49,778 nt of DNA from an uncultured Mycoplasmatota bacterium. GTDB lineage: Bacteria; Bacillota_I; Bacilli_A; RF39; UBA660. Under the pieces are notes generated by a model. It saw only the letters and a program-made list of their open reading frames with translations. It had not been told where the DNA came from and searched no databases. Position numbers and translations under genes: made by a program. Positions within the stretch are counted from its first letter, which is position 1; each line of letters starts with the position of its first letter. Positions 7,673-37,970 of the stretch are shown in pieces. The DNA lies in NCBI GenBank assembly GCA_947166445.1, contig CAMVED010000008.1:1-49778 (forward strand). Reading direction: 5' to 3'.

Positions 7673-7804
7673 AATTCTTACCTCCAACTATTATTATATA
7701 GTTTTTAAAATATACTTTCAAGATTTTTTAGATTTTATTGCTTTCTAATAGTTAATTGTAATTTTTTATCTATTATCAATCCTCTACGGGGTTTTGGTTT
7801 AATA

Positions 7805-7900
7805 TATAAAAAAGCCTAACTTGTTGTTAGGCCACCCCAATAAGGTAACGCTTAACACTCAAAAATTAAGTGTTCCTTTTTATAAGAGATTACTCTCCTA
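7805..7900 (-). ncRNA. Candidate orphan structured small RNA or leader element, family not recognised
   Basis: Minus-strand promoter TTGAAA-16-TATAAT (-10 at 7906-7911), hairpins GGAGAGTAATCTC and AACACTTAATTTTTGAGTGTT, then terminator GCCTAACAACAAGTTAGGC-TTTTTT. Confidence 0.55.
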
Positions 7901-7936
7901 AGTTAATTATACTAAACAAATATTTTTTTTCAAGTA

Positions 7937-31293: not shown

Positions 31294-32134
31294 TTGCATT
31301 TCCTTCAAGTAATTTTGGATTATTTAATAAATATTGTAAAAGTTGCATTGATTTTATCATATAAAAACCATCAGCAATACCTTCATCAAGTGTTAAACCA
31401 AAATCACAAAAATCTCGTATTTCCTTAGTTCCATCTTCTTTTATTATTTCTTTCTTATATATTTTACCCATAGTTGCCATTATAGAATTAGAGCCAAAAT
31501 CAGTAATATTATGATAAATACCGCCTTGGCAACCAATAGAACCTATATTTGAAAGGATAACAGTACTATAGTATAAAAGTTCTTCTGTTAAAGATTTAGG
31601 TAACAAATCATGCCTATCTAAAAATTTAAAAACTCCTACTATCGATCTTCTTAAAACTTTAGGCATATGTCCTACAGTAGAAACTAGTTTATCACCACCA
31701 GTTTGTGAACTAGTTCTAGCACTCTTAACATTACCAGATATTTTTTTACTAAGTGTAAATATATTATCATCTTCAGCTACTTTTAAAAGTTGCATTAATT
31801 CTTCAGCAGTATCATTAAACTCAGTCTTAGCAACAAAAGATAAAACAACATCATTTCTTTGATAAAACTTACCATTAACTATAAATATATTAAGTTGTGG
31901 TCTATTATATATAACTTTAGCAATAGCAGTTGCAAAAATATGAAAATATGTTAAATGAATATCACTTTTTTTACCAAATTTTTCTTTGTATTTAATTGCT
32001 TCTGTTACATCTACTGGATAATCAATATATACCTCTCTATCTGCTCTTCTTTTCTTTATATCAGTCATAACATACATCATACCGTTTAAGTCTTTTAATT
32101 TTTTTCCATCTCTACGATCTCCAAACTTTTTCAT
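31271..32134 (-). CDS. CAT/2-oxoacid dehydrogenase E2-like acyltransferase-fold protein
   Basis: C-terminal DFGLTLDEGIADGFYMIKSMQLLQYLLNNP resembles the E2/CAT HxxxDG region; overlaps the ligase gene by 23 nt. Confidence 0.7.
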   Translation of the reverse strand: MKKFGDRRDGKKLKDLNGMMYVMTDIKKRRADREVYIDYPVDVTEAIKYKEKFGKKSDIHLTYFHIFATAIAKVIYNRPQLNIFIVNGKFYQRNDVVLSFVAKTEFNDTAEELMQLLKVAEDDNIFTLSKKISGNVKSARTSSQTGGDKLVSTVGHMPKVLRRSIVGVFKFLDRHDLLPKSLTEELLYYSTVILSNIGSIGCQGGIYHNITDFGSNSIMATMGKIYKKEIIKEDGTKEIRDFCDFGLTLDEGIADGFYMIKSMQLLQYLLNNPKLLEGNANEKIEVK

Positions 32135-32358
32135 AAAATACCTACTTTCTTAAAATCTCTAAATAAATTATAACATAAACAATAAAAAAACACTAGAAAA
32201 AGATATCCAGTGGATTTACCAAAAACTACCAATGTAAAATTAATGTAAAATATCTTTATTGTTGGTTCTATTTATTATACAATTTAACAGATACGTTTGG
32301 AAATCAGATGTTTTCCTTTTCTTTTTCTGGGGGTTATAAAGAAAAGGTGGTGATACTT

Positions 32359-32436
32359 ATGACTAAAAGAGAAAAATCTCTATTTATCATAATATTGCTA
32401 TTATTTTTTATAGTAATAACTTTATTATACAAATAA
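32359..32436 (+). CDS. Candidate type I toxin peptide MTKREKSLFIIILLLFFIVITLLYK
   Basis: ATG 8 nt after AAAAGGTGGTGAT; one TM helix, charged ends; absent from the ORF track because of size. Confidence 0.65.
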   Translation: MTKREKSLFIIILLLFFIVITLLYK

Positions 32437-32548
32437 TAAAAAGCATCTGATATCAACCCTTGTTGATTCAGATGCATCTCAATGAATTGGGAAACGTCTG
32501 ATACCTACTTCAAACGTATCCTTTTTTATTTTATGAAGTTTCCCTCAT
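32437..32548 (-). ncRNA. Candidate antisense antitoxin RNA
   Basis: Promoter TTGAAA (32578-32583)-17-TATAGT (32555-32560) on minus strand; terminator stem GCATCTGA..TCAGATGC (32443-32475) followed by TTTTTATTATTT. Confidence 0.6.
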
Positions 32549-32680
32549 ATATATACTATATCATAAATATAAATTTATTTCAATATTTGTTTCTAATTGC
32601 TTTTCATATTTTGTTAATATTACCCAGTACATTTTATCAATAGTAGAATATAATAAATTGTAACTAAAAGGAGGTAAAAT

Positions 32681-33664
32681 ATGAAAAGAACAATAGTTAT
32701 TATTACTGGAGTAGTAGCCTTTATCCTTTTATGTTTAGGATATAGTTTTTACAGTAGTAATAATAATTCTAATTTAACAAAAGTAAAAGTAGCAGAAGTA
32801 ACTCATAGTGTTTTTTATGCACCCCAATATGTAGCGATTAAAAAAGGATATTTTGAAGATGAAGGACTCGATGTAGAACTTACCCTAACAAGTGGTGCTG
32901 ATAATGTTATGGCAGCAGTTCTATCTGGTGATGCAAACATTGGACTATCTGGATCAGAAGCTACAATATATGTTTATAATAAAGGTGAAAAAGATTATAT
33001 AAAAACATTTGCACAACTTACCCAAAAAGATGGATCATTTTTAATATCTAGAAAAGAAATTAAAAACTTTACTGTAAATGATTTAAAAGGAAAATATGTA
33101 ATTGGAGGCCGCCAAGGTGGTATGCCCGAAATGACTCTTGAATATATCTTAAAAGAAAACGGAATCAATCCAAACAAAGATCTTAATATTGATACAAGTA
33201 TTCAATTTGCAGCCATGGCAGGATCATTTATCGGAGGTACTGGTGATTTTGTAACTCTTTTTGAACCACTTGCAACCCAAGTAGTAAATGAAGGATATGG
33301 TTATAAAGTTGCACAACTTGGTACTCTTACTGATAACGTTCCATATACAGCTTACAACGCAAGGAAAAGCTATATAAATGAAAATAAAGATATAATAGAA
33401 AAATTTACTAAAGCCATTCAAAGAGGACTTAACTTTGTAAATGAAAATGATAGTAGTACTATTGCAAAAGCTATAATGAATCAGTTTCCCGACACTTCTT
33501 ATAATGATATTAAAAACGCCGTAGAAAGTTATAAAAAAAATAATACTTGGCCAAAAACCACAACATTTACCAAAAAATCATTCGATCACTTACAAGAAAT
33601 TATAATTAAAGCAGGTTTCTTAGACAAAAAAGTAAGTTATAAAGATTTAATTCATGAAAACTAA
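32681..33664 (+). CDS. ABC transporter substrate-binding protein, NMT1/THI5 or SsuA-like
   Basis: KVAEVTHSVFYAPQYVAIKKGYFEDEGLDVELT...GDANIGLSGSEA; AAGGAGG Shine-Dalgarno. Confidence 0.88.
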   Translation: MKRTIVIITGVVAFILLCLGYSFYSSNNNSNLTKVKVAEVTHSVFYAPQYVAIKKGYFEDEGLDVELTLTSGADNVMAAVLSGDANIGLSGSEATIYVYNKGEKDYIKTFAQLTQKDGSFLISRKEIKNFTVNDLKGKYVIGGRQGGMPEMTLEYILKENGINPNKDLNIDTSIQFAAMAGSFIGGTGDFVTLFEPLATQVVNEGYGYKVAQLGTLTDNVPYTAYNARKSYINENKDIIEKFTKAIQRGLNFVNENDSSTIAKAIMNQFPDTSYNDIKNAVESYKKNNTWPKTTTFTKKSFDHLQEIIIKAGFLDKKVSYKDLIHEN

Positions 33665-35208: not shown

Positions 35209-35791
35209 TATTTGAAACTCTAATTAAATGTGCTATATAAATGAGCTGTTTATCAAAAGACTTACAAGTAGTAAGAACTAACTTTTTAGTATAAATATTA
35301 TCTTTTATAGTAATTTCACCATTTTTGTTTTCATAATAATACTTAACTATTTTATATTCATATCTTTTATTATTAAAATAAACATAAACTATATCATCAA
35401 TATCTAACTTATATAATTTTTTAAAATAAGAAACATATGAATTACCACTATGAGCTGCCAAAACAAAAGTACTATTATTTTCATTTGGTAACATAAATGG
35501 TTTTAATATAGTAATATTCTCATTAATGTTATTATGAACAGATAAAGGATGGACAAAACCACCCTTTAAATTTATTTTTGGTATTTCAATAAACCCTATA
35601 AAATCATTATTATCATGTTTAATATTTGATTTAATTAACTTGGTTGTAACTACAGGAGTCTCATTAAAAAACTCATCAATTTTTTTATTATAATTTTTTA
35701 TTGATTTATAATTATATATTAAATCAAAACTCATTAGCATTATTCCAACAAATATAAATAACAAAAAAACTACTCTAATTATACTTCTCAT
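35201..35791 (-). CDS. Sortase (pilin-linked, class C/D-like)
   Basis: FVLAAHSGNS His motif and LVLTTCKSFDKQLIYIAHL Cys motif; adjacent to LPXTG-like pilin. Confidence 0.8.
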   Translation of the reverse strand: MRSIIRVVFLLFIFVGIMLMSFDLIYNYKSIKNYNKKIDEFFNETPVVTTKLIKSNIKHDNNDFIGFIEIPKINLKGGFVHPLSVHNNINENITILKPFMLPNENNSTFVLAAHSGNSYVSYFKKLYKLDIDDIVYVYFNNKRYEYKIVKYYYENKNGEITIKDNIYTKKLVLTTCKSFDKQLIYIAHLIRVSNNK

Positions 35792-37826
35792 ATATAAAAT
35801 AACTAGAACCAATTACTACTAGTATACTTGCTATAATACCAATAATATTAAAAGCACCAGTTTTAGGAACTTTCACTGTGTTTTTATTATTTTTAATTAT
35901 AAGTTTAACATTTTGCTTATCTTCTTTTATTTCAAAACAATGTTTTTCTTTTGAAAGTTTATATCCCTCGGGAGCTTTTGTTTCATAAACGCAGTACTTT
36001 CCGGCAATCATAGTTTTAATAGTTAATTTTCCGTTTTTATTAGTAACACCCTTAAACATTGCTTTGTTATTTTCAACTAGGTATATATCAAATTCTGCTC
36101 CACTTAATAACTCATCTGTTTTACTATCTTTTTTTACTATTGTCAAAGATCCTTCTTTTCTATAATTTTTCATATTTGCTTTTATTATTTTTCCGTTTTC
36201 TATTACTTCAAAAGACATTCTCTCATTATTCAATTTATAATATTTTGGAGCTTCTTTTTCCAAAATATAGTATTTACCTATATCCAAATTAGGTAGAAAA
36301 ATCTTACCGTTTTTATCAGTTCTACCACTGTAAATCAAAGTATTATCCTCTTTATAAATTTCCATTAAACAATTAGGAACAGGTACATCTAAAGAATAAT
36401 CAGTTTTTGAGAATTCTAATACAGATTTTTTTATATCTTTAGCCTTTAATTCGTACATTTTTTCTTTATTTACATTAACAGTGATATCATCAGAAAACAC
36501 ATACCCTTCTTCACCAGTTACTTGTTTCAAGGTATAAACACCATATGGTAAATCAATCATACCAATACCGTCTTGATTAGTAACCAACTCTTCTATCTTA
36601 TTGTTATTTTTGTCAAAAATATCAAATGATGCACCTTTTTCGGGAACATATTTTTCACCTGAACCACCTTTTGTTTTAATAAGCTTTATAGTTCCTTTTA
36701 TTACTTCGTCCTCTACATTAATTGTTATATTATTATCTTTACCACTCAAAGTAAAAGGATACGTTTCTTCATTTATTTTATACCCTTTCGGAGCCTTTAT
36801 TTCTTTCAACAAATAATCACCATAAGGTAAACCAGTTTTAGCTAAACCAAATTCTTTAGTTTTTATTTTCGTTACTAGTTCATTATTTGTATTATATATT
36901 CCATATTCAGCACCTTCAAGAGTAGCATCTCCTGAAGGAACTGACTTTTTCGTTTCGCTATCTACTTTTTGAATATTTACAAAACCATCAGTTACTTCCA
37001 AAAGAAATTTAAAAGATTTCCCTTCCGGTGCACCCATTCTAATAATATCTTGAAAATCACTACTAACAAAAGCTCCAAACTTTTCATTTGTTTTAGGTAC
37101 TATTTTAAAACTGACTTGATAAGGACTACTAAATTCAGAATACACAGTTAACTTATCATTGTTTTGCTCAAGCAAAACTCTTTGAGAAACATTTGACAAA
37201 GTATAATTATGGAAAACTTTATTAGTATCGGTTAACGTCTTTTTTTTGCCAGCTTCTACTATTACAATTTGATTAGCAAAACTTGGAAGCTTACTATAAT
37301 CATTTACTAATTTATTCAACTCAGATACTTCACTTTTATATAACAATGAATCTGGAACAGCATCACGATTCACTTTAAATGTCCAAGTTAAATCAGGTCT
37401 CATTATCCTCCATATCATAACTTGTGTTATTCCATACCATTTTTTATCAGTATGATCAATAAAATTATCTTTATAACCATATCCAAAATAAGCAAGAAGT
37501 TGAACCTTTTTATACTTTTCTTCTGTAAGATCAGTTTTACTAATTATTTCATCTTTATCTGTATAAATATTATGAGAGCCTGAATAAGAACCTACAAGTG
37601 GTGTTGCAGGATCAATACAATAATAAATCTTATCATCTATGGTAGACTTAATCATCCAACTATTATAATCCATGTACCTATTAGATTCTTCTGCAAAAAC
37701 AGTAAAACCTGAATCTGGGTGCCATACCTCATAAAGCTTTCCATTATACACACTAGCATTAACCCAATTTATTCTAATTGCTAATAATGAAATCATCATT
37801 AACAAATAAATCAATATTCTTTTCAT
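35775..37826 (-). CDS. Surface adhesin/pilin: thioester domain, SpaA/prealbumin-like repeats, VPKTG sorting signal
   Basis: Signal peptide after GAGGAGGTAAAA; YYCIDPA and GITQVMIWRI (TED motifs); four Y.L.E..AP.GY-type repeats; KVPKTGAFNIIGIIASILVVIGSSYFIYEKYN. Confidence 0.9.
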   Translation of the reverse strand: MKRILIYLLMMISLLAIRINWVNASVYNGKLYEVWHPDSGFTVFAEESNRYMDYNSWMIKSTIDDKIYYCIDPATPLVGSYSGSHNIYTDKDEIISKTDLTEEKYKKVQLLAYFGYGYKDNFIDHTDKKWYGITQVMIWRIMRPDLTWTFKVNRDAVPDSLLYKSEVSELNKLVNDYSKLPSFANQIVIVEAGKKKTLTDTNKVFHNYTLSNVSQRVLLEQNNDKLTVYSEFSSPYQVSFKIVPKTNEKFGAFVSSDFQDIIRMGAPEGKSFKFLLEVTDGFVNIQKVDSETKKSVPSGDATLEGAEYGIYNTNNELVTKIKTKEFGLAKTGLPYGDYLLKEIKAPKGYKINEETYPFTLSGKDNNITINVEDEVIKGTIKLIKTKGGSGEKYVPEKGASFDIFDKNNNKIEELVTNQDGIGMIDLPYGVYTLKQVTGEEGYVFSDDITVNVNKEKMYELKAKDIKKSVLEFSKTDYSLDVPVPNCLMEIYKEDNTLIYSGRTDKNGKIFLPNLDIGKYYILEKEAPKYYKLNNERMSFEVIENGKIIKANMKNYRKEGSLTIVKKDSKTDELLSGAEFDIYLVENNKAMFKGVTNKNGKLTIKTMIAGKYCVYETKAPEGYKLSKEKHCFEIKEDKQNVKLIIKNNKNTVKVPKTGAFNIIGIIASILVVIGSSYFIYEKYN

Positions 37827-37970
37827 TTTTACCTCCTCATATAAATAATTACTAAAAAAAATGAAAAGACCTAACTTTTCTTTGTTTTTTTTCGATTTTT
37901 TCATAAAAATAGATATTTACAATTCAAAGAATAACAGATTTTCATAAAATAAAATAGAAAGGATGATGAT

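Follow-up and report, generated by a model that had tools for sequence, protein, structure and literature searches.

The stretch of DNA considered here (hereafter the window) comprises positions 1 to 49,778 of the forward strand of contig CAMVED010000008.1, from assembly GCA_947166445.1 of an uncultured Mycoplasmatota bacterium that GTDB places in RF39, UBA660. Within it, about 370 bases lying between a gene for an acyltransferase-like protein and one for an NMT1-like ABC transporter protein hold the gene of a 25-residue membrane peptide and that of a predicted RNA expected to oppose it, a locus that a first-pass annotation made from the sequence alone had described as resembling a type I toxin-antitoxin system. 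The open reading frame (ORF), at 32359-32436 on the plus strand, translates as MTKREKSLFIIILLLFFIVITLLYK, a hydrophobic peptide with no proline or glycine, and stands behind a Shine-Dalgarno (SD) sequence, AGGTGG, at 32345-32350, which was recognised in the sequence and in its relatives. A hairpin (32315-32347) formed by CCTTTTCTTT (32315-32324) and AAAGAAAAGG (32338-32347) sequesters this SD. The mRNA would be about 239 nt in length (32289-32527), from just past a probable -10 box, TACAAT at 32278-32283, to a T-tract at 32522-32527; the box aligns with TATAAT in the relatives and precedes the paired 5' end by 6-7 nt. The two ends of this mRNA are complementary, the 5' arms (32290-32316) being GATACGTTTG (32290-32299), which pairs with CAAACGTATC (32511-32520), and 32303-32316, which pairs with 32489-32502. 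The 3' arms (32489-32520) can alternatively fold on themselves as a sense terminator hairpin before the T-tract.

On the minus strand, a convergent promoter at 32555-32583 has a -35 box, TTGAAA (32583-32578), and, after a 17-base spacer, a -10 box, TATAGT (32560-32555), preceded by TG. The predicted antisense RNA, a putative antitoxin of about 115 nt (32433-32548), is fully complementary to the 3' untranslated region (UTR) of the mRNA; its extent was derived from the positions of promoter and terminator, from its fold and from the coverage of R1, a covariance model of the antisense module. It ends at an intrinsic terminator stem (32443-32475) followed by TTTTTATTATTT, and starts with a hairpin of its own, TGAGGGAAACTTCA at 32534-32547, which lies past the mRNA 3' end. 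The first-pass annotation had placed this RNA here, at an estimated length of about 110 nt, without mention of the 5' hairpin. Comparison of copies and alignment of their ends show that the unit dispersed within the genus of the window spans 32216-32588, its limits being the sense promoter region on one side and the antisense -35 box on the other.

The peptide is conserved in about 30 copies with the consensus M[TSN]KRExSLFIIILLLFFIVITLLFK, which we call class A or the KRE type. Across 29 ORFs of this class the ratio of nonsynonymous to synonymous substitution rates (dN/dS) is 0.23 in frame, versus 0.63 and 1.40 in the other two frames, and third codon positions are the most variable; a second class described below, class C, likewise gives a dN/dS of about 0.2, with higher values in other frames. 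In a few class A copies the ORF is interrupted by a stop or a frameshift, or lacks its start codon. Almost all peptides (98%) bear a net charge of +1 or higher.

The minus-strand promoter has the joint best score for a sigma-70-like promoter in 31500-33600, an interval in which the number of such sites, 13, shows no excess over shuffled sequences (14.7 +/- 4.1), so that we give the promoter weight because it is conserved in relatives. Together with the antisense 5' hairpin it is the most conserved portion of the locus. The hairpin itself has CAAG..CTTG in 92 sequences and GAAG..CTTC in most of the remaining 61, an exchange that is compensatory, and its loop is mostly GAAA. Folding of the antisense strand from 32548 to 32430 gave a z score of -6.6, in a fold made up of the terminator, the hairpin at the 5' end and another in the middle, and the antisense RNA would normally stop near the toxin stop codon, outside the initiation region. 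The sense promoter of the relatives has an extended -10 element, TGnTAnnnT, in 97 of 155 mRNAs. Upstream of it, at 32213-32256 of the window, are repeated TTACCA-like and AATGTAAAA motifs, present only in copies of the window's genus, which are possibly the site of a regulator.

RNAfold gives 32276-32525 a minimum free energy of -79.3 kcal/mol, compared with -39.6 +/- 4.5 in dinucleotide shuffles (z -8.8), in a fold that has the end pairing, the antisense-terminator stem and a paired SD region. The pairs named by the first-pass annotation were then counted on an alignment of 30 class A sequences, and standard pairing was kept in 96.0% of cells, versus 31.7-44.3% when the partners were slid; at least one compensatory change was seen at each of 21 of the 42 pairs, and none of 500 shuffles reached any of five measures. 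In that alignment the two end-pairing helices were 96.7% and 97.8% paired, with nine pairs compensated, the SD hairpin 86.9%, and the antisense-terminator stem 97.5%, with compensation at nine of its 12 pairs. RNAalifold recovered identical helices unprompted. What had been read from a single sequence is a feature of its relatives as well: the ORF behind its SD is conserved as a protein, the SD hairpin, the complementary mRNA ends and the terminator stem covary, and the convergent promoter is retained. Searching relatives for the same pairing of mRNA ends, a check that the annotation had itself proposed, found it.

The arms of the end duplex can alternatively form local hairpins, a 5' hairpin and the sense terminator, which are 91% paired. 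The latter beats shuffles in most of the toxin classes set out below, and the local energy of the SD hairpin does so in all of them (median z -3.0 to -5.0), so that control of the SD by mRNA structure is a predicted property of every class. The end duplex contributes about 30 kcal/mol (-79 versus -47 without the 3' arms). It was not borne out as what hides the ribosome site: the SD stays about 80% paired whether the 3' end is present or absent, and likewise once the 5' end has been trimmed, its unpaired probability in equilibrium folds being 0.17 at full length and 0.21 without the 3' arms. Trimming of the 3' end and processing of the 5' end were each considered as the activating step and were both rejected on the same equilibrium folds, in which the SD remains paired. 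The idea that an arm of the antisense terminator is a general second copy of the 3' arm was also dropped, as such a likeness occurs often in class A and in about half of class C and not in classes B, D or E.

The 3' fifth of the element, with the antisense promoter and 5' end, matches many sites that lack the KRE peptide and encode other small peptides at the same spacing from the antisense module, mostly 145-175 nt. At least five toxin classes, and others besides, share the module, with toxins of 23-40 residues: after class A come class B (K.EKYL..KIVPTV, 30 residues), class C (NKKDFLILSL, 27), class D (KT[KR]TFIIKVLKLI, 30) and class E (KKQSYHLQVLKYVITIL, 31). All that their peptides share is size, charge and a single membrane helix, and they are too short and hydrophobic for a distant common ancestry to be decided. 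In every class the mRNA start, right after the -10 box, is complementary to the mRNA end before the T-tract, in quite different letters, and in 88-100% of the members of classes A-E the end duplex beats all 50 shuffles. Antisense terminators occur in all classes (those of B, D and E are equivalent to the stem at 32443-32475), and that of class B lies within the last codons of the ORF. The suggestion that the peptide might belong to a new family stood, and the finding is larger than was claimed, the window peptide being one class among these. Tandem arrays of 3-5 elements, sometimes of mixed classes and spaced by about 330-480 nt, were observed at five loci (L062, L147, L199, L130 and L165). 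At L116:5910 and L130:554 the antisense module stands beside a non-hydrophobic 29-residue ORF, MS[ED]SDREKLKNTLKELLNSISLDVCTDAC, where the membrane peptide was expected, and this may be chance or a different cargo.

In the genome of the window (G000; 755 kb, 53% complete), a 97% identical copy at G000:C3:68234 has about 370 bp in common with the window between unrelated flanks. Three more class A copies are present, two of them cut by contig starts. A class C copy at C2:12337 (L256) is intact, and C7:15871 and C8:7829 each give a weaker match. Contigs C9 (4-206) and C17 (4-197) of the same assembly both begin inside the element, at query base 114. Since contigs that start at the same base imply that near-identical copies break the assembly, copy numbers in metagenome-assembled genomes (MAGs) are probably underestimated. 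The window contains, at 7750-7920 (plus strand as sense), a diverged and apparently decayed relative (R1 32.9 bits, E 0.004), in which a terminator hairpin of the antisense type, GCCTAACTTGTTGTTAGGC, and a T-tract preceded by paired 3' arms, AACACTCAAAAATTAAGTGTTCC, are recognisable together with a minus-strand TATAAT/TTGAAA promoter, and upstream of which is an ORF remnant (..IVIFYLLSILYGVLV) interrupted by stops; a similar relict is at G000:C7:15851 (L257).

Beyond this genome, about 15 related genomes have full or near-full copies at 73-81% identity, and a pattern scan of named genomes found at least 120 stretches, nearly all in MAGs whose labels read uncultured Bacilli, Tenericutes, Mollicutes or the like; the gut of rabbits (Lapin), ruminants, deer and chickens is the source of many, and Candidatus Ventrenecus is among them. 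At E <= 0.001, R1 has matches in 56 of 79 genomes from the window's family; at E <= 1e-5 it has them in 108 of 146 from its order, with 1-28 copies in each; all genomes among the matches listed in the scan of the order belong to the window's family. A draw of 199 genomes from the class gave 15 with a match, 14 of them in that family. The one outside it (G350), from another family, has an intact class D locus near the end of a 12-kb contig (L258, G350:C32:11600-12038), and is a case of either horizontal transfer or a binning error.

So dispersed a unit could be taken for a miniature mobile element or palindromic repeat, such as a miniature inverted-repeat transposable element (MITE), whose arms merely resemble a regulated mRNA and whose ORF is incidental. 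The copies are indeed scattered and multiply within genomes; those of congener G001, on C26 and C2, align to the window at about 32221-32588 and 32216-32586. The window copy is, moreover, missing at the same site in two congeners: the interval 32188-32626 has no counterpart in G001 and G003, where the flanking genes stand only 26-31 nt apart, and an unrelated stretch lies between them in G002 and G004. An empty site in two congeners makes the window copy most simply a recent gain, and we read it as a probable recent insertion, loss in the congeners being possible. Against an incidental ORF are its in-frame purifying selection and its retention: of the 137 matches that a covariance search of 100 named loci returned, 130 had enough flank, and an intact small hydrophobic ORF with an SD was found in 97 of these 130 versus 8 of 1130 control positions (0.7%). 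The dispersal of repeats without the ORF, which had been named in advance as the sign of a MITE, was hence found as to dispersal and not as to the loss of the ORF. In addition, the arms are wholly changed between toxin classes with the pairing retained, the promoters and terminators of both strands are conserved, the unit stops at the antisense -35 box, no transposase belongs to it, and alignment of the ends of the copies showed no clear terminal inverted repeat. Given the selection on the ORF, its retention and the lack of clear terminal repeats, we rejected the MITE or palindrome as an explanation, and regard it as highly improbable.

A different rival accepts that this is a type I pair and departs from our reading on its role only, making it an addiction cassette borne mainly by prophages or plasmids. 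Many type I pairs of Bacillus and Clostridioides difficile do reside in prophages (PMC4147584, PMC6563280). Among 50,697 phage records there was nonetheless no match, in a collection where the phages of these hosts are poorly sampled, and the sole match among 72,556 plasmid records, from Ca. Stammera, was weak (E 6e-4) and covered only 22% of the query. The window copy, for its part, sits between the acyltransferase-like and ABC-transporter genes, and we consider a mainly prophage or plasmid setting unlikely. Elsewhere in the window, at 35775-37904 on the minus strand, is a gene for a 709-residue surface adhesin-like protein with a thioester domain and SpaA-like repeats.

ORF conservation, covariation and conservation of the antisense module all support the type I reading, and we conclude, with a probability of roughly 0.85, that the window holds a chromosomal type I toxin-antitoxin pair belonging to a superfamily in one family of gut Bacilli, its transcription, repression and toxicity being predicted from sequence. 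As such a pair, it would be transcribed from a weak promoter into an mRNA of about 239 nt for a single-helix membrane peptide of 25 residues, with the leader hairpin hiding the SD. In the finished transcript, the 5' and 3' ends would close into a duplex of about 24-30 bp that shields both of them, leaving the mRNA stable and untranslated. The convergent promoter would supply the antisense RNA, about 115 nt long, which begins with a separate 5' hairpin and is a perfect complement of the mRNA 3' UTR, and pairing there would lead to double-strand-specific decay of the mRNA. Were the supply of antisense RNA to fail, mRNA escaping the closed fold would be translated and the peptide would damage the membrane. 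The SD might open in the course of folding while the mRNA is being transcribed, or might be unfolded actively by ribosomes or helicases. Across the superfamily, a conserved antisense module would have been joined to at least five toxin types and its copies multiplied within genomes.

Several observations weigh against this conclusion. The sense promoter of the window copy is weak, with TACAAT and no good -35 box seen. A quarter of the covariance-model matches had no ORF by the measures applied, and only in class A does the local 5' hairpin clearly outdo shuffles. The full-length, 3'-trimmed and 5'-trimmed equilibrium folds all leave the SD about 80% paired, so none of them points to a translated form. 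Protein-level selection in class B is weak (dN/dS 0.65), which is partly expected because the end of the ORF also encodes the antisense terminator; the stem in the last codons may explain both the conserved C-terminus and the weak dN/dS.

The peptide is probably toxic, judging from its size, charge, membrane helix and the multiple locks on its expression. Many small membrane peptides are not toxins, and one with a regulatory or stress role under the control of a cis-antisense RNA would have an identical gene architecture, toxicity being something we infer. Such a role is less easily squared with the different peptides carried on one module, whose likeness in size, charge and helix alone is expected if membrane insertion itself is the activity; the redundant locks on translation, the gain and loss between congeners and the decayed copies also better fit a toxin. 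We hold a non-toxic function to be quite improbable. More speculative, and to our minds somewhat short of an even chance, is a broader proposal: that at least five unrelated membrane peptides have been joined to the conserved module (promoter, GNRA-like 5' hairpin and A-rich linker), with the specificity arms rewritten each time, end pairing and antisense complementarity kept and paralogues of the same cell held distinct. The result would be an RNA addiction cassette, modular and self-duplicating, that makes up the dominant part of the toxin content in gut Bacilli with small genomes.

A superfamily with at least five toxin types, at up to 28 copies in genomes of about 1 Mb, is invisible to Pfam, NCBIfam, PHROGs, PADLOC and Rfam. 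Representative peptides had no match in the first four, and the RNA had nothing near the gathering score of any Rfam covariance model; the few sub-threshold hits look like chance. Resemblance to loci already known has been the main route to the discovery of type I toxins (PMC12390103). Type I systems in Tenericutes receive a mention, with no detail, in a 2025 paper; our literature search found no paper joining toxin-antitoxin systems with RF39, an entry in T1TAdb being possible. The superfamily offers hundreds of natural variants for the study of RNA folding, of discrimination between paralogues and of spread, and its search models could serve in annotating uncultured gut bacteria.

Assignment to the Fst, TxpA/BsrG, hok or AapA families failed on the tests made, and the best reading of the sequences is a new and apparently undescribed superfamily of type I toxin-antitoxin loci, counted as new because pairing of the mRNA ends like that of hok and AapA is combined with the 3' overlap of Gram-positive pairs, and different toxins are carried on one antisense module. 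Of hok/Sok it is known that hok has an overlapping mok frame, none of which was seen here, and an antisense RNA at the leader, which here is at the 3' end; the toxin here is also shorter. What the two would have in common is an inert full-length mRNA, end pairing and refolding, features of hok as cited in PMC6733600.

In the type I pairs of Gram-positive bacteria the two RNAs overlap at the 3' end, RatA promoting decay and SR4 both decay and closure of the SD (PMC4147584). The predicted convergent antisense RNA over the mRNA 3' end is like that of BsrG/SR4 and TxpA/RatA of Bacillus subtilis, and BsrG too has its SD in a leader hairpin (PMC4147584, PMC8309996). The BsrG and TxpA toxins, in contrast, have 38-59 residues versus 23-40 here, and the conserved 5'-3' end duplex and shared antisense 5' hairpin set the present loci apart; the peptides matched no family in Pfam or NCBIfam, a search whose sensitivity is limited for sequences as short as these. 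Fst/RNAII (par), Lpt and SprA1 likewise have a small membrane peptide, convergent RNAs that overlap at the 3' end and an SD in a stem (PMC8309996, PMC4147584), but the APxxxGxxx motif of Fst/Ldr-like toxins is missing in the window peptide, and here each RNA has its own terminator. CD2517.1/RCd8 of C. difficile is similar in pairing a small hydrophobic toxin with a convergent antisense RNA in several copies, and different in that those toxins have 34-53 residues and lysine-rich C-termini and are often borne by prophages, with end pairing not reported in the accessible part of the source (PMC6563280).

A close likeness in the mRNA is that to aapA/IsoA of Helicobacter pylori, which shares a membrane peptide of the 30-residue class, multiple copies, 5'-3' pairing of the mRNA and SD-sequestering hairpins, its mRNAs being locked by end pairing with transient SD hairpins (PMC6733600). 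No sequence relation between the two was found, and unlike IsoA, the antisense RNA here overlaps the mRNA 3' end. Trimming at the 3' end of the kind that exposes the SD in aapA had no such effect in the equilibrium folds, the SD staying closed in silico without the 3' end, and as to the sequential metastable hairpins that hide the SD in aapA, here the SD hairpin is strong in all classes and the local 5' hairpin stands out from shuffles in class A only. Taken together, these comparisons suggest that an end-pairing lock of the hok and AapA type also occurs together with the 3' overlap of the Gram-positive systems.
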